A DNA stretch of 59,071 bases, taken from positions 1-59,071 of the IMG/VR virus record IMGVR_UViG_3300049053_000020; one strand, written 5' to 3'. The notes below the pieces were generated by a model. It saw nothing but the letters and a program-made list of their open reading frames with translations. It was not told the origin of the DNA and ran no database searches. The position numbers and the translations under genes were made by a program. The DNA is from a virus. Below, in pieces: positions 21,387-30,992 of the stretch. Positions within the stretch are counted from its first letter, which is position 1. Each line of letters starts with the position of its first letter.

Positions 21387-21508
21387 TTCTTAATTATTTT
21401 TTTGTCAGCAACTTGCTTTTCCTTTTCAAGCAGCTTTTTTTCAAGCACTTCCTTTGGTAACTTAGGCTGCTGCTTGTCCTTGTCCTTCTTGTTGTTGTCC
21501 GGCTTCAT
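21383..21508 (-). CDS. Tiny lysine-rich protein between portal and protease
   Basis: 41 residues from the ATG at 21508 (MKPDNNKKDKDKQQ), almost entirely charged with about 40% Lys, ending KQVADKKIIKK. It overlaps the portal end by 47 bases and its TGA overlaps the protease ATG (ATGA), which supports real translation and coupling. It could also be only a coupling device. Function unknown. Confidence 0.45.
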   Translation of the reverse strand: MKPDNNKKDKDKQQPKLPKEVLEKKLLEKEKQVADKKIIKK

Positions 21509-23045
21509 TGGTATTAGTTTGTGGTTCTGATTGCACTGACATCCTTGCGGCGTCTTGCGATGATAATCCAAACACTACCTCAAGGGTAGCCTGCTTTGCT
21601 TCTTCACTCATGCCCTGTGCAGTTATCACGGCAATCAATCCCTGAACACCACCCACGCCAATGGTCACTGCCAATGGCACGTTGGATGACTTAGGATCAG
21701 TAGCTCGCACTTGCCCCAGCCCGTTGGGCAATGGGTCTTCGCCCAGCTTCTCAAGCCAGTCGTCAAGTGTTATTAATCCGTTTTGGAACTCGATTGTAAG
21801 CGCATCGTCGAGGGTCTTACGAGCCTGTGCCGATTGCTGTTTATCTTCCTGCAATACCGCTACATGGCTGTAGTCCTTGTCTATCTTAAGGTTGTACTTC
21901 TTGGTATTAAAGAATTGATTCCACTGCTCGTATATGCTTTCAGCTTCGGGTAGTGTGGCATCTTGATATAGCAACTTCTTGCCTTCATTAAGGTTGCTAA
22001 AGGTTGTTCCCTTAGCGCTACTCATTAGTTGGTAAGGGTAATTGTAGTTATCGCAGATAGCCATTGTGTCAGCTTCGATTTCCTCGAACAACATAAGGTC
22101 GCGTGTCGCTACCCCCATCTGTTGCCACTTCAAAGCGGCTGATGTTATGATAAACTGCCATTGATGGTTCTTAAGGCCATAGCGACGTAGGTCTTGTTGT
22201 AGGTTCTCCTTTTCCTTTTCGGACATTGGTATGGATCCATAATTACCGTTGCCGGGGTCCTGCGATAGTATACCCAATGCGCCCCGGTAATTGATTAATA
22301 CGTTGCGGCTCTCGTAGGCGCCGATAATATTGTTGATAGGAAGTTCCAGTGAGTGAATGCGACTGTCAGGAATAACCAGGCTACAGAACGAAGGGGTGAA
22401 GTCTTTTATAATGTATATATCATCAACGTTCAATATTGTTTGTACCCCCTTGTAGTTAAGTACAATCTGCTTGATGATGCCTTTATTATCGCTCTGGTAA
22501 AAGAGCTTGTTGGTCTCCTCAATATCCACCATGGACGGCGGGATATTCCATAGGGCTGTCGCATCGATATTCTCTTTGAAGCCTAATGGCTTAATAGGCA
22601 GTACGATAGTATAGCCAAACAACTGTTGGTAGATATACCCTTGCGCCTCAAATTGCTTCCAGGACTGTAATAGATTAGGCTTTTCAAATAAGGCCTGTAG
22701 CTTTTTCGCATCTGCCGTTGTAGCTTCCTTGCCCTTCTCTTTGCCAGCGAGATTCAGTACCCATGTCTTACCGTTGATGTACGCCTGTGCCTTCTTATTG
22801 ATAATCGCATTAACAGGTGGGCAATATTCATATGCCTTTACCGAGCTATTATGCCCGGCGTATTTGAAATGAAAAACCGACTTACCATTCGCTTCAAAGA
22901 ACCAATTGTCGCCGGCGCCCGTTGCAGAAGGTCGATAGTCGTTAGGAACAAGTTCATAGGAGTACGGTGTCAATGACTTAAGGGCGGTATCAAAATCGCC
23001 TTTAATCAGTTCTCTACCTGCGTTTATCAGTCGTTGTACTTGCAT
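21462..23045 (-). CDS. Portal protein
   Basis: 527 residues, the usual length. The family pattern is visible: YEYCPPVNAIINKKAQAYINGKTWVL (clip/stem entry), YIYQQLFGYTIVLPI, WNIPPSMV, then GAYESRNVLINYRGALGILS and the stem and wing helices with DTMAICDNYNYPYQLMSS. A Gln-rich tail ends the protein. It forms the 12-mer ring for DNA entry and exit. The ATG at 23045 directly follows a hairpin and T tract (23046-23087), with no room for a Shine-Dalgarno site outside it. Confidence 0.88.
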   Translation of the reverse strand: MQVQRLINAGRELIKGDFDTALKSLTPYSYELVPNDYRPSATGAGDNWFFEANGKSVFHFKYAGHNSSVKAYEYCPPVNAIINKKAQAYINGKTWVLNLAGKEKGKEATTADAKKLQALFEKPNLLQSWKQFEAQGYIYQQLFGYTIVLPIKPLGFKENIDATALWNIPPSMVDIEETNKLFYQSDNKGIIKQIVLNYKGVQTILNVDDIYIIKDFTPSFCSLVIPDSRIHSLELPINNIIGAYESRNVLINYRGALGILSQDPGNGNYGSIPMSEKEKENLQQDLRRYGLKNHQWQFIITSAALKWQQMGVATRDLMLFEEIEADTMAICDNYNYPYQLMSSAKGTTFSNLNEGKKLLYQDATLPEAESIYEQWNQFFNTKKYNLKIDKDYSHVAVLQEDKQQSAQARKTLDDALTIEFQNGLITLDDWLEKLGEDPLPNGLGQVRATDPKSSNVPLAVTIGVGGVQGLIAVITAQGMSEEAKQATLEVVFGLSSQDAARMSVQSEPQTNTNEAGQQQEGQGQAAA

Positions 23046-23087
23046 AAAAAGAAAAAGGGCCAGTCACCCATTGCTGAGTGCTGGCCC
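23046..23087 (-). terminator. Terminator-like hairpin ending at the portal start codon
   Basis: On the minus strand the stem GGGCCAG/CTGGCCC (23057-23063 and 23081-23087) extends by three pairs past a bulged base. It is followed by TTTTTCTTTTT (23046-23056) and then the portal ATG. It looks like an intrinsic terminator or attenuator that must be passed to express the head genes, or a protein-bound RNA hairpin controlling portal translation. Confidence 0.75.
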
Positions 23088-23117
23088 TCTTGGGGCGCTA
23101 GTATTTTTGATTAAGCG

Positions 23118-23327
23118 TTAACCTCTACCTATTCTACCTACAAATGCATTTGCCCTTTCAGGCCACTGGGTCGCTTGTTGTATGTTTTGCTCTGGCGCCA
23201 ACTGTGTTGGCAATATCTCTACAGTCGTATAGGTGCCGCAGTGTTTGCACTTGAATTCGGCTTTGCCGGACTCAAGTCTTCCAACTACTTTATTGCATTT
23301 GGTACCGCTGCATCTAATCTCCTGCAT
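23118..23327 (-). CDS. Com-like zinc-ribbon regulator
   Basis: 69 residues. MQEIRC....C (Cys6, Cys11) and CKHC (Cys27, Cys30) form a four-cysteine zinc site, laid out like phage Mu Com and the Zn_ribbon_Com family (EIRC..CNK....EFKCKHCGT). Com of Mu is an RNA-binding activator of mom translation. No mom-like gene is next door; instead a strong hairpin and the portal gene follow. The C-terminal 30 residues are polar with a basic end (VGRIGRG). Confidence 0.65.
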   Translation of the reverse strand: MQEIRCSGTKCNKVVGRLESGKAEFKCKHCGTYTTVEILPTQLAPEQNIQQATQWPERANAFVGRIGRG

Positions 23328-23348
23328 ACTACGAAATTAGAAATATAT

Positions 23349-23366
23349 TTTCAAATTATTCTGAAA
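23349..23366 (-). promoter_or_regulatory. Late-gene motif, copy 2 (before the com-like gene)
   Basis: TTTCAAATTATTCTGAAA on the plus strand, 22 bp before the com-like start and differing by one base from the copy at 31211. TAATTTCG, close to the Bacteroidota -7 box, lies at 23332-23339 on the minus strand. It would start transcription into com, hairpin and head genes. Confidence 0.5.
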
Positions 23367-23976
23367 TATTTGAAAGATTGTCGTTTGTCTCCATTTTACC
23401 ATGCCCTCTGGCGCTGGCATTGACTAATGGAAGGGCTATAAATTTGGTGGGGGCCTGGTTGGTAACCGCCTTGATATATCGGTAATCCCCGGCTTTATAG
23501 CCATCGAGCCCTGACAACGCCTTGTACTGCGAATGTAGTACCAGGCAGGGAAGGCCGATCTTTCCCTCGGCTATCACCTTCTTTCGGATATAGGTGTCGG
23601 CGGGCTTAGGTACACCGTTACGTATCATCTGGCAGATAATGGCGCCGGGTAGCTTCAGTTGATCAGCCAGTTCTTCAAGTACTGTATTGCTTGCTAATGT
23701 GTCATCATCGTCTAGGAAAAAGAACCAGCCGTGGGTAACTAACAACTTCAGGGTATTACAATGTATGTCGTAGAAGTATGGATAATTGCAAAATGGTTCA
23801 ATAAATAACTTCCTGATATTGTCTCCAATAGGGATATACCGAATCGCTTTTGGATTATCAAACCCGACGATAATCTGAATGTTCTTATACGTCTGATTCC
23901 TTATCGACTCCAAGCACCGGGCGAATTGGATGGGGCGGTTGGATGTACGGATGAGGATGTTCAATAGTTCTGACAT
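23356..23976 (-). CDS. Family 2-type glycosyltransferase
   Basis: 206 residues. The start LLNILIRTSNRPIQFARCLESIRNQTYKNIQIIVGFDN is the GT-A nucleotide-binding opening, and FFLDDDDTLA supplies the metal-binding DXD. It is short for the family, with the acceptor part reduced. It should move a sugar from an NDP-sugar to an unknown acceptor in the cytoplasm. Last gene of the sugar island; overlaps the upstream endonuclease-like gene by 16 bases. Confidence 0.78.
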   Translation of the reverse strand: MSELLNILIRTSNRPIQFARCLESIRNQTYKNIQIIVGFDNPKAIRYIPIGDNIRKLFIEPFCNYPYFYDIHCNTLKLLVTHGWFFFLDDDDTLASNTVLEELADQLKLPGAIICQMIRNGVPKPADTYIRKKVIAEGKIGLPCLVLHSQYKALSGLDGYKAGDYRYIKAVTNQAPTKFIALPLVNASARGHGKMETNDNLSNISE

Positions 23977-24611
23977 AATGCCTCCTGCAAAGTTTTACCT
24001 TTCTTTATTCTACCATATACTGTGCGTCTGTTTAATTTTAGGGGCTTGCAAATTTGGGAGAGTGTTAAGTATTGACCATTATATTCATACTTTACGCTTA
24101 CGGACCGGTTGCTCATATTTTCAAGAGCAGTTACCCATGAGCATGTTGCTGACGAATAATGTTTGCCATCCCCTCTAATGTCCTTATCCAATTGCAGGCC
24201 CTTAACCCATCCATTATTTAAAGCCCAATGCAAAAAAGATTCATAGTTGTTTCTCCATTCATCACATACCCTAACGCCTTTAGCGCCGTATGTTTTATAG
24301 ATTTTTGTTTTTTCATTATAACATCGATTAATCATTGTCTTATATGCAATATATATATCATGATTAACCACAGAATACTTTCGTCTTGTAAATTTGTCCG
24401 CTCTTGAACATCCACATGACTTACTGCGAAGGTTTTTAATTTCACTTAAATTCGTTCTTTTAATAGTTCCGCATTCACATTTGCACACTACCGCCACAGC
24501 ATTTCTTCCTATGCTTGTCTTTATAGCGCCATCGAATTGCAGTACAACCCATTTGCTTTTGCCTGTCAGCAAGTTATTGATCTGCTCAATTGTTAGACTA
24601 TTTGTATACAT
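23961..24611 (-). CDS. Homing-endonuclease-like DNA-binding protein
   Basis: 216 residues. A zinc-type segment (VCKCECGTIKRTNLSEIKNLRSKSCGC split over residues 43-70) is followed by IAYKTMINRCYNEKTKIYKTYGAKGVRVCDEW, a layout seen in many phage genes of the HNH/AP2-linked selfish type, and a C-terminal NUMOD1-like helix-turn-helix (LTLSQICKPLKLNRRTVYGRI). The HNH residues are not clear, so it may be only DNA-binding. Probably a mobile gene that entered the island. Confidence 0.55.
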   Translation of the reverse strand: MYTNSLTIEQINNLLTGKSKWVVLQFDGAIKTSIGRNAVAVVCKCECGTIKRTNLSEIKNLRSKSCGCSRADKFTRRKYSVVNHDIYIAYKTMINRCYNEKTKIYKTYGAKGVRVCDEWRNNYESFLHWALNNGWVKGLQLDKDIRGDGKHYSSATCSWVTALENMSNRSVSVKYEYNGQYLTLSQICKPLKLNRRTVYGRIKKGKTLQEALCQNY

Positions 24612-24626
24612 ATGGTTTTATTTTTT

Positions 24627-24845
24627 TCACGCTATTATCACCGGTCTTTCCCATAGTTCAACTTTTAAATGTGGTTTTAACCGTTCAACCGACCATTGGC
24701 CGTCTTGCCACCAGGTATATATTTCGCGGCCATCTACGAGCTTAACACGAAACCGACCATTTATCTGCTCGCCTTTCCCCCAGCGTTCTACAGCCCACTG
24801 ATCAGGCGTCTCGTCGCTTGCTGTTATCCATTTGTGGTCTGTCAT
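24627..24845 (-). CDS. Small DUF551-like protein
   Basis: 72 residues from the ATG at 24845; a TTG 12 bases upstream is the alternative. The text KWITASDETPDQW and WSVERLKPHLKVELWERP is weakly like DUF551 phage proteins (W....P at start, W..P at end). Its start overlaps the stop of the upstream gene by ATGA. Function unknown. Confidence 0.5.
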   Translation of the reverse strand: MTDHKWITASDETPDQWAVERWGKGEQINGRFRVKLVDGREIYTWWQDGQWSVERLKPHLKVELWERPVIIA

Positions 24846-25105
24846 GAATACGGCCAATCGAGTTGAAAATCAACTACTGTTTTATACTTCAATAAACACT
24901 CCCAGCTGAAACTGCACCCAGTTGATTGCCGAGTCATGCCGTTACGAGCTGGCTTGAAGTCGTGCCGGGCTAGTATTTCAACGATGGCAATCAAGACCTC
25001 CGGGTCTTCGCATACTACTACTGGTCTCTGACTGAATGCTTCGGTTAACTGTTTAGCAAGCTCGGGCGAACAGTTGATAGTGAAGGTGAAATCTAGCTTA
25101 CTCAT
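24842..25105 (-). CDS. Small hypothetical protein
   Basis: 87 residues from the ATG at 25105 (MSKLDFTFTINCSPELAKQL), which overlaps the previous stop by 8 bases. Not recognised. Pattern strand-helix-strand-helix (LTEAFSQRPVVVCEDPEVLIAIVEILARH), followed by a polar, Cys-containing end. Co-translated with its neighbours in the sugar island. Confidence 0.5.
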   Translation of the reverse strand: MSKLDFTFTINCSPELAKQLTEAFSQRPVVVCEDPEVLIAIVEILARHDFKPARNGMTRQSTGCSFSWECLLKYKTVVDFQLDWPYS

Positions 25106-25676
25106 TATCAAAAGTATAAGGCCCCAAAGATAAACCTCTGAACCGGTTAACATCAATCTTATTGCTCACCAGGGTAGCCCCTGCACCGCCGCCTGTCTTG
25201 TTGTAGTTGAGGCGGTATTTGAAGTGCGGCCATGCCTTTGACCATGAATAATTGCCCGCCCCTCCTTCTTCCGTGTCATGCAGCACCAATACATCAGCGG
25301 CATTGGCAAGGGCAATAGCATCGAGGTAACGGCGTTCACCTGGCGCGTGGTCGATGAAGATAAGACCATGATGATGTTTAGCTATCAGCGTAACAAGAGT
25401 GTCCCATTCAAGCGCGAAGTCGGCGCCTGTTTTATGGCACCAATCAACGTTATTGTCGTAAGATCTAAAAACGCGGCCGGTCGCCTCGCAATACTTTCGC
25501 AGGTATGACGTACTGCCATCGCCGCTGCCAAGCTCCATAACGGCGCCGGTTGTAAGCTCAAATCCTAATAAGAGTAACGGCCTGTGATTTTCCCAGTTCC
25601 CTGTTATACCCTGCAAGAATCCATGAATGTCGGTAGCCGCAATGTTATTCAGATAAGACTGATTTAACTTATCCAT
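25098..25676 (-). CDS. Class I SAM-dependent methyltransferase-like protein
   Basis: 192 residues. VMELGSGDGSTSYLRKY is the SAM-binding motif I, FRSYDNN marks strand 2, and LIFIDHAPGERRYLDAIALANAADVLVLHD the later strands. The layout resembles Methyltransf_24-type enzymes that act on sugars or small molecules. Placed between glycosyltransferase genes, it probably methylates the glycan they build. Overlaps the upstream gene by 8 bases. Confidence 0.65.
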   Translation of the reverse strand: MDKLNQSYLNNIAATDIHGFLQGITGNWENHRPLLLLGFELTTGAVMELGSGDGSTSYLRKYCEATGRVFRSYDNNVDWCHKTGADFALEWDTLVTLIAKHHHGLIFIDHAPGERRYLDAIALANAADVLVLHDTEEGGAGNYSWSKAWPHFKYRLNYNKTGGGAGATLVSNKIDVNRFRGLSLGPYTFDNE

Positions 25677-26391
25677 TTAACGCCTCCCTGAATTTAGTAA
25701 TGAATGAATGATCTTCACCGGGCCACAGCCTTTCTGCAACTTGGATCTGTGCATTCCAACTATTGCGGAGCATGTGTACGTCAATGATAGTATCGGGGAT
25801 AATATCCCAACATGCTCTATCCCATCTGCCCGTAGGTAAGCCTTTAGGGTGGTCGTGTAGGCGGTCAACGAAAGTTATTCGCCCCATGCCGTATTCGCGT
25901 GCGCGTTGGGTTAACAGTTGTTGATCAGTAGACCAATATCGGTTCCAATCTTCGCTGTATGCTGCGTCGGGGATATGGAACTCACCCATCAGTTCGCGCC
26001 ACTTTACGGCTGTGGCAATGTTATAACATATTGGTAATTCTGATTTACCAGTCAGGTCGTACCCGTAATTGGTAAACCCATCATTGCAATTGAATATATC
26101 TTTCGCAATTATCATATCTGAATCGCTGGTAATGATGATATCCTTGTCGCTGAATATGGGAGACTGACAGGCGAACAGCCTGAATAGTTGCGCAATGGTT
26201 GAATCCTTTACTAATGGCGTTTGCCTTAAAGGCATAAAGTCTGCATCGCAGAACGATTTGATAACCTCCGGCACATCCCCGATAGTTAGAACCACAGGCC
26301 TGTATCCAATCTTATTCCAGCTGTGGCAGGCCAATGGAACAAGAGAAAAGTAGTCAGGGTTGGCATCAGTTGAAATTATAGCATATTTCAT
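25669..26391 (-). CDS. Glycosyltransferase-like protein with DXD motif
   Basis: 240 residues. The start MKYAIISTDANPDYFSLVPLACHSWNKIGYRPVVLTIGD and the core DIIITSDSDMIIAKDIF (DSD metal site) match GT-A retaining-type transferases related to GT8. WSTDQQLLTQRAREYG and DRLHDHPKGLPTGRWDRACW follow. Likely uses an NDP-sugar in the cytoplasm; acceptor unknown. Overlaps its neighbour at 26388 by ATGA. Confidence 0.68.
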   Translation of the reverse strand: MKYAIISTDANPDYFSLVPLACHSWNKIGYRPVVLTIGDVPEVIKSFCDADFMPLRQTPLVKDSTIAQLFRLFACQSPIFSDKDIIITSDSDMIIAKDIFNCNDGFTNYGYDLTGKSELPICYNIATAVKWRELMGEFHIPDAAYSEDWNRYWSTDQQLLTQRAREYGMGRITFVDRLHDHPKGLPTGRWDRACWDIIPDTIIDVHMLRNSWNAQIQVAERLWPGEDHSFITKFREALNG

Positions 26392-26741
26392 AAAGACTGC
26401 ATTTGTTTTTTAATCGCCCTTTCATTTAACAATAACCGGCGGTTGTTTTCAAAATATGAAGCAAGCAATTCATTCGATCGCTTCTTTAGGTCAAATATAT
26501 CAGGTGGCCATATCTCCCGCGTTCCTCCGAATTGATATTGCAAGGTCAGGTGCTTACCCCATAAATCATGACCTGGAATATACCCCCAATAGTTATCCAC
26601 TTCAATGTCCTGAGTTAGCATAGTATACCAGAACATCCACCGCTTTTCCTGAACTTTCAGAACAATTAGTTTAGTGCCAACAAAGTCTTTTTTATTTACT
26701 ACTTGTACGCGCAACTTGTCGCTATGGTAGATGTGTTTCAT
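26388..26741 (-). CDS. Hypothetical protein of the sugar island
   Basis: 117 residues, aromatic-rich (KRWMFWYTMLTQDIEVDNYWGY), with a basic helical C-terminus. No motif recognised. Starts directly after the tiny gene at 26742 and overlaps the glycosyltransferase after it by ATGA, so it belongs to the same operon. Confidence 0.55.
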   Translation of the reverse strand: MKHIYHSDKLRVQVVNKKDFVGTKLIVLKVQEKRWMFWYTMLTQDIEVDNYWGYIPGHDLWGKHLTLQYQFGGTREIWPPDIFDLKKRSNELLASYFENNRRLLLNERAIKKQMQSL

Positions 26742-26870
26742 TTATCTTATTTTAATTTCCATTAACTCCACATCTTGCAATAGTTTCTCCTTGCCTTCTT
26801 CTGATATACGCGGAAGCAGTTTCTCTAATCTTGATGGAGGCAGTACCAGTATTGTAAGTTCGTTATCCAT
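26742..26870 (-). CDS. Very small hypothetical protein
   Basis: 42 residues: MDNELTILVLPPSRLEKLLP then a charged helix ending VELMEIKIR. Its TAA is immediately followed by the ATG of the next gene. Composition is protein-like and its place in the tight operon supports it, but there is no other evidence. Confidence 0.45.
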   Translation of the reverse strand: MDNELTILVLPPSRLEKLLPRISEEGKEKLLQDVELMEIKIR

Positions 26871-26953
26871 TTATTATGACCCCAGTATTGTTTTTAAATA
26901 TACCTTCGCCCTAAAGCGGCAGAAAGGAAGATGATGTCGATCATGCGTTATTT

Positions 26954-27085
26954 TTAATCAGTATAGAAAACCCATATAAAAGGAATATGCCTAAAGTGAT
27001 TACTCGAAAACGTCTTACTTACTTCGCATCTGCATATGTAACCGATTATATCAATGATAACTAATACAACTATTGACAGTATCAT
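26954..27085 (-). CDS. Tiny single-pass membrane protein
   Basis: 43 residues. MILSIVVLVIIDIIGYICRC is a membrane helix, followed by a polar segment. The ATG overlaps the TGA of the glycosyltransferase upstream (ATGA). It might anchor the sugar machinery at the membrane; that is speculation. The 83 bases after it (26871-26953) hold no convincing gene, only a 16-codon frame. Confidence 0.42.
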   Translation of the reverse strand: MILSIVVLVIIDIIGYICRCEVSKTFSSNHFRHIPFIWVFYTD

Positions 27086-27930
27086 AGCATCCAATAAAAA
27101 ATTGACGGATATTGTTTCTCGATCCCCTCCCAATACTCATTATCCTTGCCATGCTTCTGCAGGAACTTGACCACCGCATCAGTTTGGAAACCCGAGGCCC
27201 CGATGTGGAACCCATACCCGTTCGTCTCCTTAAGCTCATCCGGCACGCCTATTTCTTTCAGGTCAATATCATGTATGAAGTTGTGGCAATCGCCCCTAAA
27301 CGTCTGAGGATGGCCTAAAACGAAATGCTCCGTGATGCTGTCGGCTACCTTTGGCAACACGTACCGGTTCAGAAAGTCCTGATCGGCGCCTTTGTTATTA
27401 AAGTCAATACCCTGGCTGAGTGATAGTAGTTCGTCGAATGACTTAACGCCCATGCGTGCGCGGAAGGGGCCGGACTGGAACCCGATCATACCGCCCATAA
27501 GGGTTATGTTATGGCTTACGCTGTCGGTAATTGCGTGTGCCATCTTGGGGCCTCGTTCCCAATAGGAAACTGCTTGTCGTTCGCGGTAGGATAACAAGCT
27601 GTCAGTGTCGCGGCAGATAATGCGGTCGTATTTGTTTTTATCATCCTCGATCATGAACATAGGCAACAACCGATACAGCATCATTTCGCACAAAGGGCGG
27701 GTAGCCTGTAGATAAACATCTAATCTTTTATCCAATGCCAGGTTGGTGAAGTATTCCCTATATGGCGAATAATGCACCGATTGGTCTATTGCCACGCAAA
27801 TAGACCACCCTGGATAAAGCAGTTCTGCAATGCGAATATTAAGATGTAGACCACGTAGGTATGCCCGGAAGTCGTAACAATTTTCATGTTGTTGGTTGTA
27901 ACCGAATAATGAATATGCGATCGCGTTCAT
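27082..27930 (-). CDS. Glycosyltransferase-like protein
   Basis: 282 residues. YDRIICRDTDSLLSYRERQAV holds a DTD metal-binding motif and FQSGPFRARMGVKSFDELLSLSQGIDFNNKGADQDFLNRYVLP resembles the nucleotide-sugar and acceptor part of GT-A enzymes with DQ/EDQ acid motifs. N-terminal MNAIAYSLFGYNQQHENCYDF is an opening I have seen in phage and bacterial sugar transferases. Overlaps the small upstream gene by ATGA. Confidence 0.62.
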   Translation of the reverse strand: MNAIAYSLFGYNQQHENCYDFRAYLRGLHLNIRIAELLYPGWSICVAIDQSVHYSPYREYFTNLALDKRLDVYLQATRPLCEMMLYRLLPMFMIEDDKNKYDRIICRDTDSLLSYRERQAVSYWERGPKMAHAITDSVSHNITLMGGMIGFQSGPFRARMGVKSFDELLSLSQGIDFNNKGADQDFLNRYVLPKVADSITEHFVLGHPQTFRGDCHNFIHDIDLKEIGVPDELKETNGYGFHIGASGFQTDAVVKFLQKHGKDNEYWEGIEKQYPSIFYWML

Positions 27931-28082
27931 TTGTCCTTGTTTAATAAGCCCCTTAATATTGATTTATAATACTCGGCATACTCCTTGCCGTCCTCTCGAT
28001 TCTCCCAATATTCAATTCTAGCTATGATTTCACGTCGGAACTCTTGTTCAGCGGTTAATGTTGGTCCTAGTTTCATACCCAT
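27927..28082 (-). CDS. Small hypothetical protein
   Basis: 51 residues, MGMKLGPTLTAEQEFRREII then a charged helix (YWENREDGKEYAEYYKSILRG). Its TGA overlaps the ATG of the glycosyltransferase at 27930 and its start lies right after the stop of 28084-28659. Shape resembles a short helical adaptor; function unknown. Confidence 0.5.
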   Translation of the reverse strand: MGMKLGPTLTAEQEFRREIIARIEYWENREDGKEYAEYYKSILRGLLNKDK

Positions 28083-28083
28083 A

Positions 28084-28659
28084 TCAATAATTTTTATCGC
28101 TTACGTAATCATAAAAATATAACGTCTGCTCGACCTTATACTCCACTTTCAGTAGTCCACTATCCCGGAGTTGGAAACAATAGTTGCTATCCTCGCTTCG
28201 CTGCCAATCAGGGAATGTCATCTGTTTGGCAATCGATGATCTCACGGTATTGAGGTGATTGGGTGGCCGGTAGTAAACACCGTCGCGCTCATACATCGAA
28301 TCATAATCTATTGAATGCTTGAACGGTTTCGGGTCTTTGCTGTCTGTGGTAATGATCCCGTTAAGCGAACAGCAGTCAGGATTGGTCGCAATGCCCGCCA
28401 TTACCAGTTCAATGTAATCATCGGCTATTCGATCGTCATCATCGATGAAACAGATGTATTCGCCGCGCGACTCCTGCAATAATAGATTTCGTTTGGCACC
28501 TATCGATATATCGGTTGTCTTGTCTGAACGTATTTCAATGTCGACGCCGTGCTTTAAGTAATAATCAACCGTTTGACTTGACACGTGTTTCACTATCCTA
28601 TCAAAGAATTGCTCTCGTCCTGGCACCGTTGGAATGAGTATTGATAGTTTTGGTGTCAT
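28084..28659 (-). CDS. Family 2 glycosyltransferase
   Basis: 191 residues. LSILIPTVPGREQFFDRIVKHVSSQ opens a GT-A fold, IGAKRNLLLQESRGEYICFIDDDDRIADDYI carries the DDD metal site, and PDWQRSEDSNYCFQLRDSG the ED acid motif. All expected GT2 landmarks are seen. Likely transfers a sugar from an NDP-sugar. Overlaps the upstream HNH gene by ATGA. Confidence 0.8.
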   Translation of the reverse strand: MTPKLSILIPTVPGREQFFDRIVKHVSSQTVDYYLKHGVDIEIRSDKTTDISIGAKRNLLLQESRGEYICFIDDDDRIADDYIELVMAGIATNPDCCSLNGIITTDSKDPKPFKHSIDYDSMYERDGVYYRPPNHLNTVRSSIAKQMTFPDWQRSEDSNYCFQLRDSGLLKVEYKVEQTLYFYDYVSDKNY

Positions 28660-29207
28660 TTGAATGATACATTTCGCTTATTAGGTACAATTGGCGCACC
28701 TGTTATGTGATTCCAGGTTCTGCCTGTTTTTATATTCGATATTGCGGAGTGATTGACACCGTATTGACGCCCCAATTCTCTGGTCCCTAAGTTTGATTTA
28801 TATATTTCCATAACATCCGCATCGGTCAATTGCGACTTATTACAGCCTTCTCCCCTTGCCTTATTCTTAAGCCCCATTCGTTCAGCATGGCGTTCATTAT
28901 GACTCTTATCGCACCATTCAAGGTTAGATATATGGTTATTTGTTTTATCGCCGTCAATGTGGTTAACCATAGGTAACCCTGAAGGGTTAGGAATAAACGC
29001 CTCCGCTACAAGTCGGTGGATGCGTAAATTAACTCCTCTTATATGCTTTGCTGGGTAGCCGTTCCCGTTTATTGTTATGCTAAGCATTACAGGCTCTTTA
29101 GATTTTTTTCTGGCGCCCTGCCCTAAATATGACCTGAGCCGACCATAGTTGCTTACTTCATACGCGCCATTGGTGTTTGGGATAGCCTTCCACTTTTCGT
29201 CACTCAT
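28656..29207 (-). CDS. HNH homing endonuclease with NUMOD4
   Basis: 183 residues. NUMOD4 (WKAIPNTNGAYEVSNYGRLRS), HNH core (IHRLVAEAFIPNP...VNHIDGDKTNNHISNLEW with His/Asn residues), and a C-terminal helix-turn-helix (LTDADVMEIYKSNLGTRELG..YGVNHSAISNIKTGRTW). A free-standing homing endonuclease that cuts DNA lacking its gene and spreads by repair. It sits in frame with operon overlaps at both ends, so it has adapted to this place. Confidence 0.85.
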   Translation of the reverse strand: MSDEKWKAIPNTNGAYEVSNYGRLRSYLGQGARKKSKEPVMLSITINGNGYPAKHIRGVNLRIHRLVAEAFIPNPSGLPMVNHIDGDKTNNHISNLEWCDKSHNERHAERMGLKNKARGEGCNKSQLTDADVMEIYKSNLGTRELGRQYGVNHSAISNIKTGRTWNHITGAPIVPNKRNVSFK

Positions 29208-29860
29208 AAGTCAAAGTTTAGCAATTGTCGTTTTAAAAACACTTCTTTATCCTTATTATAAGTATCGTTTCTCCAATACAATTCATCTTTTTTTGCCTTT
29301 GCATTATTTGTATAATGTAGATGCTCAATATGAGTACCAGGCACTAAAATATATTTACCTCTCAGCTGGGCAACAGCTTGCGCTTCATCATCGCACCACA
29401 TCGAATAATAGTCAGGGTGATATATGTACCCATCGCGTTCATAATACTTGCGGCCCAATATACTCACCGTGCATACCCGGTCTTTAGCGTAATCATCCAT
29501 TAAATGAACAAACCCGTCAAGATCGGCCGGCATGTGTTGACGGATAAGGTTGTCGAATCCGTGAGTACGAAAGCGCATATCATCACTGAGGCAGACAAGA
29601 ATGTCCCAGTGGGGTAAGTTATCTAATGATCTATTAATTGCGTGTATCTTACTTTGACTGGTACCCCACCTTGAAATGATAGGGGTCTGAGCCTGTTCGA
29701 TGCGACATCTTACGTTATCATTGTACATCATTAGGTCGTCGGTGTCCAGCTTAGCCACTACGAAATAATCATCACTGGCGCTCATAGTGCGCACATTATC
29801 GAGTGTCTCAAAGAATCGCTCCGGCCTTGACCGGCTGGCAAATGAATAACAGATGGTCAT
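29204..29860 (-). CDS. Glycosyltransferase-like protein
   Basis: 218 residues from the ATG at 29860, which overlaps the upstream TGA as ATGA; an ATG at 29866 is equally possible. MTICYSFASRSRPERFFETLDNV opens like GT2 enzymes, VAKLDTDD and LVCLSDDMRFRTHGFDNLI supply acidic metal-binding motifs, and HPDYYSMWCDDEAQAVAQLRG resembles the acceptor part. No membrane segment. Confidence 0.65.
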   Translation of the reverse strand: MTICYSFASRSRPERFFETLDNVRTMSASDDYFVVAKLDTDDLMMYNDNVRCRIEQAQTPIISRWGTSQSKIHAINRSLDNLPHWDILVCLSDDMRFRTHGFDNLIRQHMPADLDGFVHLMDDYAKDRVCTVSILGRKYYERDGYIYHPDYYSMWCDDEAQAVAQLRGKYILVPGTHIEHLHYTNNAKAKKDELYWRNDTYNKDKEVFLKRQLLNFDL

Positions 29861-30063
29861 TCCCATACTAATTTTAAGTAACCGCCAAAAACTAACAATG
29901 CCGCGCCCCATGGCGTAAATTGGGCGCCTACTAAATCCCTTGCTGTCACCATGCCGCCCGACGACTTTAACTCATCTATCCACCACTCTGTTGCAGATGC
30001 AGCAATGCAATAAGCAACACCAGCCAAGAAAAGCGCAATGAATATATGCCTGAGTGTTTTCAT
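29857..30063 (-). CDS. Small membrane protein of the sugar island
   Basis: 68 residues with two hydrophobic helices (about 7-23 and 51-67) around a polar middle. It lies between glycosyltransferase genes and overlaps the next start by ATGA. It may hold a glycan-related step at the membrane, or be unrelated; no family recognised. Confidence 0.5.
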   Translation of the reverse strand: MKTLRHIFIALFLAGVAYCIAASATEWWIDELKSSGGMVTARDLVGAQFTPWGAALLVFGGYLKLVWE

Positions 30064-30064
30064 A

Positions 30065-30292
30065 CTACTTTTTAATTAACGCATTAAGTTGACTTGCGAA
30101 GTGGCCGAGCAGCAAAGAGCCGTTTATCCCCTGCCAAAAGGTTAAATGAAAAGGAATTAACAATAAGGCAATCCCTATCGAATAGGCCAACCACCTCACA
30201 ATTGATAATGGTATCTTCACCGGTAGTCCCGGTTCGCCCTTATTCACTTCAGCGTTCTTTGATGTATCAATATCAATCGTTTCCTTTTTCAT
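30065..30292 (-). CDS. Small membrane protein of the sugar island
   Basis: 75 residues: a polar N-terminal 28 residues, then two hydrophobic stretches (about 30-46 and 50-66) and a short tail (QLNALIKK). Overlaps the upstream gene by 20 bases. Unknown; together with 29857-30063 it forms a pair of membrane proteins within the island. Confidence 0.5.
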   Translation of the reverse strand: MKKETIDIDTSKNAEVNKGEPGLPVKIPLSIVRWLAYSIGIALLLIPFHLTFWQGINGSLLLGHFASQLNALIKK

Positions 30293-30992
30293 ACTTGCTT
30301 GGTATTGGATATAAGTCTTGTAATATTTCTTTCATCCCATTGGGCGTCCAGCACCGGTCGCCGATGCTGAACCATGTACGGCCGGCAATAGCCTGGTTTA
30401 TCTCATCTGCCTGTAAGGGCATGCGTATTTTTATATCATCCATATACTCGCCCTCAATCCCGTTCATTACACAGTACAACGTCTTTAGGCAGTAACCATA
30501 CCATCTATTCCAGTCGGCCAAAGGTGCACTCCGCATAAACCTCTCTTTATTAAAGAGTATTGGGCAATGGGTATCAAAGTTCTTTACCTCGTCATAAATC
30601 GGCCTTCCCAGAATTGATAATGTATTTCGCTTTGTCTCCCCATATTGCCCGTCCCCCGGCACCATATGCCCACAATGGTAATAAGGGAAAGCTCTTGCTA
30701 CATAGTTTACCAACAGGAAATGATCATCATGCACCATCAGGAAGTCATCACTCACGCGCTCATCCTTGCACGCCGCCAGCATCTTGTTCATGATATTACG
30801 ATCTCTGAACCGGTTACGCGGGTCTTCGTCGAAAGGGATGTGGATGCATCCGGTAACCCACTCTGGCATGTGCCCAATGATGAAGATGTTACCGACGCCG
30901 GTTAGATGCTTCTCAATGCTACGCAGGCAATACCTCAATTCCAGGTTGCGCTGAGTTGAGCGGTTATTGAGGGGGATAACGATGTCAGTCAT
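30273..30992 (-). CDS. Stealth-like sugar-phosphate transferase or glycosyltransferase
   Basis: 239 residues. TDIVIPLNN, ELRYCLRSIEKHLTGVGNIFIIG, PEWV, NRFRDRNIMNKM and DDFLMVHDDHFLL follow the order of the conserved regions of Stealth proteins (capsule polymer hexose-1-phosphate transferases). The DD of VHDDHF would be catalytic. It may transfer sugar-1-phosphate rather than sugar. First larger gene of the island; GGAGGAGG precedes its start. Confidence 0.6.
   Translation of the reverse strand: MTDIVIPLNNRSTQRNLELRYCLRSIEKHLTGVGNIFIIGHMPEWVTGCIHIPFDEDPRNRFRDRNIMNKMLAACKDERVSDDFLMVHDDHFLLVNYVARAFPYYHCGHMVPGDGQYGETKRNTLSILGRPIYDEVKNFDTHCPILFNKERFMRSAPLADWNRWYGYCLKTLYCVMNGIEGEYMDDIKIRMPLQADEINQAIAGRTWFSIGDRCWTPNGMKEILQDLYPIPSKYEKGND

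Follow-up and report, generated by a model that had tools for sequence, protein, structure and literature searches.

A Com-family protein and a conserved RNA hairpin probably form an autogenous switch at the head operon of uncultivated Bacteroidota phages

Introduction

Com is known as a translational activator of one DNA-modification gene. The Com protein of phage Mu is a small protein with an N-terminal CCCC zinc finger, whose gene lies directly upstream of the gene that it controls, and there a short hairpin, AUGC[CUGCGA]GCAU, adjoins and partly overlaps a larger inhibitory hairpin (TIS) (PMC6483171). SELEX and footprinting with a Mu-like Com from Haemophilus yielded in 2019 the motif CC(N)2-3GAG, or GAGNNCC(N)2-3GAGNNCC in its bipartite form (PMC6483171). 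Two further systems invite comparison with the locus described here. In lambda, Q-type and nut-type control also places a terminator before structural genes that is passed by read-through with the help of a phage protein. The Ogr/Delta proteins of P2-like phages are likewise four-cysteine proteins of ~70 residues tied to head-gene expression; they are DNA-level activators, and our protein has no match to their Pfam family.

Here we analysed a virus genome record of 59,071 nt, referred to as the window, in which a four-cysteine protein gene lies upstream of the portal gene. As in Mu com-mom, a C..GA hairpin overlaps a larger hairpin downstream of that gene. The locus differs from Mu in that the portal gene and head operon would be controlled instead of a DNA-modification gene. 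Moreover, the Mu start codon (GUG) lies within the TIS stem, whereas here a U tract follows the stem, which in most loci ends 10-18 nt before the AUG. A limited literature search found no head operon with an associated Com homologue and no other use of Com. The head operon as a Com target in place of DNA modification appears to be new.

Results

A Com homologue lies upstream of the portal gene

The order of portal, capsid and terminase genes in the 59-kb record is typical of a tailed phage. The features of the com-portal region, all on the minus strand, are as follows.

23349..23366 (-): palindrome TTTCAGAATAATTTGAAA, 18 bp, upstream of com; a copy of the recurring TTTCA-N8-TGAAA and putative part of a phage promoter module
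23332..23339 (-): -7-box-like TAATTTCG directly before com, resembling the Bacteroidota consensus TAnnTTTG; putative promoter of com and the head operon
23118..23327 (-): com homologue, 69 aa, recognised by an HMM of outgroup Coms (E 1e-12) and through syntenic relatives that pass PF10122
23083..23098 (-): bipartite motif GCGCCCC-AA-GAGGGCC, a single mismatch away from the Com motif obtained by SELEX
23084..23096 (-): small Com-type hairpin GCCC[CAAGA]GGGC, its form recurring in relatives with covariation of 4/4 pairs
23053..23091 (-): big hairpin with a terminator-like or translation-inhibitor-like stem, from folding and basal pairing across loci
23046..23056 (-): T tract TTTTTCTTTTT from stem to portal start codon, T-rich relative to other gene starts
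21462..23045 (-): portal gene (PF04860, E 2.6e-16; PHROG portal families), presumably the first structural gene of the head operon under the proposed control

The sequence-only reading of this DNA had placed a four-cysteine, Com-type protein at 23118-23327. This open reading frame was confirmed; its cysteines, C6, C11, C27 and C30, form a predicted C-x4-C...C-x2-C zinc ribbon. All four are invariant in an alignment of 11 sequences, where the window clade spaces the first pair as C-x4-C and L015 has C-x2-C; a few distant Com members have only three of the four. The window protein itself has no match to PF10122 (Zn_ribbon_Com) at E values up to 1, short of the curated cut-off, and reaches PHROG 6417 ('translational regulator') with E = 0.015 only. 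Proteins at the same place in relatives do pass PF10122, with 26.2-32.0 bits for L015, L033 and L036 (cut-off 22.9) and 33 bits for L034. Furthermore, an HMM built from 21 Coms outside the window clade and run against all window ORFs found the window protein at E 1e-12 (next ORF 0.035). Judged by sequence comparison, through the same-place relatives and the outgroup HMM, the window protein is a Com homologue.

A strong hairpin and a T tract precede the portal start codon

The big stem begins 26 nt after the com stop codon. Its GGGCC...GGCCC core spans 23087-23057 (31 nt), and flanking A-U pairs extend it to 23091, with a ΔG of -27.1 kcal/mol. The T tract (11 nt, 23056-23046) abuts the portal ATG at 23045, and both elements are thus positioned as the initial reading had described them. 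Folding of the region gave -30.7 kcal/mol (z = -4.17), which 0/200 shuffles equalled. Within the 59-kb window this is by a wide margin the strongest combination of hairpin and T tract (-27.2 versus -21.4 for the runner-up), and it has the make-up of an intrinsic terminator: a GC-rich hairpin of -27 kcal/mol, then 8 T of 9. No Rfam family matched in the window.

The hairpin accompanies com in related phages

Portal relatives were collected from IMG/VR in three overlapping scans (17, 25 and 80 loci), together with five loci from genome contigs. Among the loci examined, a Com HMM detected 37 with a homologue upstream of portal, and in 36/37 com is followed by a strong hairpin. Automatic search found 33 of these; those of L033, L036 and L112, which have shorter T tracts, were recognised in the sequence itself. 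The hairpin lies 18-63 nt past the com stop codon (488 nt in L003, owing to an HNH insertion), with the next ATG usually ≤18 nt further on. By comparison, strong hairpins at most 20 nt from the portal start are present in 0/40 com-less portal loci. Two loci initially counted as com-less carry a Com-like ORF, with a hairpin in L114 and without one in L146. Among the five portal loci from genome contigs none has a clear com, L160 giving a weak match only. A small membrane ORF separates hairpin and portal in L034 and L035, so the hairpin travels with com. At first sight L003, L034 and L035 seemed to carry the hairpin and to lack com; this was wrong, as com is present in all three. The cultured relatives Freya and Danklef were considered as models and set aside: they lack com and show the ordinary order of terminator, promoter and portal.

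The one exception, L097, has Com and no terminator-like hairpin. Upstream of its portal gene at 2179, a TTCGC...GCGAA stem closes immediately at the ATG and may represent a version of the switch that is purely translational. In L003 (5265-5925), a homing-type HNH gene, apparently broken by an in-frame stop, has inserted downstream of com and ahead of the hairpin; beyond it, the motif AAGAGCTCC and the hairpin are still present. The Com of L003 is unusually divergent.

The hairpin persists in related phages with full covariation; its loss there would have spoken against the first reading of the locus. Big-stem sequences are wholly different among phages and yet remain paired: across 20 distinct loci the basal 7 bp are paired in 99.3% of cases, compared with 61.6% when 3' arms are permuted. 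The T tail after the stem is similarly widespread. Relatives have a mean of 6.8 T in 9 positions, versus 2.3/9 at -12..-4 of 38 other window genes, and at least 6 T of 9 occur in 24/31 loci versus 1/38 control genes; other start regions of the window phage are A-rich. The U tract is weak in one clade (L033, L036, L101, L103, L105 and L117), which retains hairpin and AUG spacing. In 27/31 loci the AUG lies 10-18 nt past the last GC pair, and in most loci the portal start codon is outside the big stem, unlike in the Mu TIS.

A small Com-type hairpin shares the foot of the big stem

The big hairpin was rejected as the sequence read by Com. Its loops vary (AGCAAU, UACG, UUCG, GUAA), its stems are wholly unlike among phages with ~87-90% identical Com proteins (L006, L007), and L003 has the same big hairpin beside a very different Com. 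When the 42 nt preceding the stem were searched by EM, a conserved motif emerged, WAWWAG[AC]GCYCC, with a log-likelihood ratio of 125 versus 34-39 for shuffled sequences. Elsewhere in the window the motif has four comparable PWM matches, none of them followed by such a hairpin.

In the window this region can form a 4-bp hairpin, GCCC[CAAGA]GGGC; the big stem uses the 3' strand of this hairpin (23087-23084) as its foot. Small hairpins with a C..GA loop are present in 23/31 leaders, compared with 2.6±1.4 after shuffling and 8.3 when upstream segments were swapped between loci; these leaders were picked for having com and the big hairpin and include near relatives, and the shuffles ignore phylogeny. 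Examples are ACUC[CAAAGA]GGGU in L033, ACUC[CAGAGA]GGGU in L036, AUCC[CAAAGA]GGAU in L113, GCUU[CAUAGA]AAGC in L126, GCGU[CAGGA]ACGC in L114 and GCACC[CCAGA]GGUGC in L007. With stems trimmed to X4-C-GA-Y4, 11 distinct stem types gave a covariation score of 0.873 versus 0.339±0.072 (0/500 shuffles; slid controls 0.08-0.19), and all four pairs changed on both sides. The strict form is missing in 8/31 leaders, comprising near misses (L015, L115, L091, L096, L111), two that keep only 3 bp (L109, L029) and one without a clear form (L099).

Agreement with the published Com target was found as well. The bipartite SELEX motif (PMC6483171) occurs within 2 of 10 mismatches in 18/31 leaders, where 0.6 are expected. 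The window has one mismatch, and L034 (GAGCCCC-AG-GAGGGCC) matches exactly. Loops differ in length, with 5 nt in the window clade versus 6 nt in the SELEX RNAs. The initial proposal, control of portal and hence the head operon by Com through RNA ahead of portal, is well backed by the comparisons across phages; its target changes from the big hairpin to the small one overlapping the 5' foot.

Since Y4 serves the small hairpin as its 3' strand and the big stem as its foot, the two hairpins are mutually exclusive. When the small hairpin was enforced in folding, the upper big stem stayed and the GC base adjoining the U tract became unpaired, at a cost of 9-15 kcal/mol. The small hairpin would therefore lose without Com, so that tight binding or co-transcriptional timing would be needed. 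It is the predicted nascent fold, before the 3' arm is made, in most of nine leaders including the window, though not in L033, L034 and L036, which favours action on RNA that is still being transcribed. Plain complementarity energies did not set own leaders (-6.9 kcal/mol) apart from swapped ones (-6.5 kcal/mol); a clear signal came only from the structured C..GA comparison.

Promoter-like elements lie before com

No promoter was found between the hairpin and the portal ATG, where a transcript start would have spoken against the original proposal; promoter-like boxes lie before com. An exact TAnnTTTG precedes com in 10/31 relatives (1.6 expected), and at least 5 of 6 letters are kept in 26/31 (16 expected). 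The palindrome TTTCA-N8-TGAAA was counted 3 times in the window; related genomes have 2-5 copies each, apart from G007 (0), and a backwards-pattern control gave 0. It precedes com in the window clade and in the distant L033 and L036. Further copies stand ahead of a tail gene, of the terminase operon and of the region after terminase. Sites of the palindrome followed by a TAnnTTTG-like box are, in the window (minus strand), 31228-31211, 23366-23349, 7432-7415 and 32791-32774, and such sites are present in G001-G006 and G008. The palindrome with a TAnnTTTG-like box is a candidate late-activator site marking the starts of late transcription units.

In L016, which has no com, palindrome and box stand directly before portal; the com promoter is therefore probably the head-operon promoter. 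Several com-less loci, and likewise the cultured Freya/Danklef, have a TAnnTTTG box directly before portal. Com and the switch thus probably sit between the head-operon promoter and the head genes.

The same layout occurs in com loci of Pseudomonas phages

Two known loci served as positive controls, com-mom in Pseudomonas phage JD024 and com-adenine methylase in Phipami28; both have C..GA hairpins in the stretch that separates com from the gene after it. In Phipami28 (L164, 2113-2170) the hairpin is AGGC[CGAGA]GCCT, its 3' strand shared with a stem that hides the ribosome site. As in the window, the loop has 5 nt and the 3' strand also serves as 5' arm for a large hairpin before the next gene; the differences are that a methylase is the target and that the large hairpin covers a Shine-Dalgarno sequence. 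The com-DNA adenine methylase locus of this cultured phage is an unexploited natural Com target. From the like architecture in JD024 and Phipami28, the layout appears to be a general one, with variation only in how expression is blocked.

Discussion

With a probability of about 0.74, we favour an autogenous RNA switch of the Com family as the gate to the phage head operon, with Com binding to the small hairpin suggested by the comparative data. Because com lies ahead of the head genes with a conserved Com-type hairpin in between, Com probably decides when head genes are expressed in a broad group of uncultivated Bacteroidota phages. Transcription would start at the promoter in front of com, and Com would be made from the first gene. 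In the off state, the long hairpin, followed by the U tract and portal AUG, would end transcription and/or keep ribosomes off the start. The on state would be the short 4-bp hairpin with its C..GA loop, the structure recognised by Mu-type Com. By binding this hairpin as it emerges, Com would block the base of the long hairpin from forming and free the GC-U junction and ~10 more bases before the AUG, so that head genes would be expressed once Com has accumulated. Both Com binding and the direction of its effect, turning head genes on, are read from these patterns. Antitermination seems somewhat likelier than purely translational control, because a U tract follows the stem; exposure of the start site as in Mu would be the other route. 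The T-rich tails, in contrast to other gene starts, point to termination, and the weak T tail of one clade points to translation. Unlike lambda Q or nut-type factors, Com would refold RNA at one local terminator and not travel with the polymerase; no Q or N homologue was noticed.

A purely translational switch as in Mu com-mom, in which Com opens the hairpin and the U tract serves only as a ribosome landing site, would fit the Mu precedent (PMC6483171), the narrow AUG spacing in 27/31 loci, its retention with the hairpin in the weak-U-tract clade, and the com-methylase locus, where the ribosome site is hidden and no U tract is present. We nevertheless regard it as rather unlikely, as the T-rich tails resemble intrinsic terminators and not the A-rich starts, and the stem does not cover the AUG.

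Two other roles of the hairpin appear less probable still. It could be an ordinary com terminator, com being a moron with its own promoter, and the head genes being read by a termination-resistant polymerase. The U tract, the variable stem, the promoter-like box before com with the hairpin after it, and the joint gain and loss of com and hairpin would all agree with this. We consider it improbable, since it leaves unexplained the pre-stem motif, the covarying C..GA hairpin sharing the stem foot, the SELEX-motif match and the nearly constant distance (10-18 nt) from the stem to the following ATG; the palindrome and box kept before portal in L016 also make the promoter appear to serve the head operon. 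Finally, intergenic hairpins can in general act in mRNA processing or stability, and the conserved position would suit an element setting the ratio of com to head message while Com regulates something else. This would predict neither a U tract nor a Com-type small hairpin, and we judge it very improbable.

In dozens of Bacteroidota-type phages, the proposed autogenous Com switch would give Com control over entry into virion assembly, and both of its alternative folds are conserved. Hosts of the Bacteroidota type generally lack Shine-Dalgarno sites, and for phages of such hosts the switch is a possible late-gene timer. More tentatively, and with less than even confidence, Com-family proteins may be antiterminators of phage late transcription that refold nascent RNA at a dedicated terminator as a self-reinforcing head-operon timer; the translation switch of Mu com-mom would then be one derived use within a larger family of autogenous RNA switches built on Com. 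For the unsolved Com-RNA complex, the leaders also provide natural variants whose sites covary, and they yield a simple rule for finding Com-controlled genes: X4[C..GA]Y4 overlapping a hairpin downstream of com.

Further elements of the window genome

A second conserved leader follows the terminase-side promoter (window ~31190-31090, minus strand) and recurs in L053, L057, L066 and L072. It contains a 9-bp helix, an apparent pseudoknot, CCGACAUAC...GUAUGUUGG with CUAUUCC/GGGGUAG, and then a terminator-like hairpin just before an ATG, with weak covariation among 5 sequences. As the loop ends in GA, this leader may be either a further target of Com or an RNA element of its own. Between terminase and com, a cargo island (23356-30992, minus strand) carries at least one glycosyltransferase gene (PF00535) and an HNH endonuclease gene, and is flanked by the two strongest late terminator-like hairpins of the minus strand.
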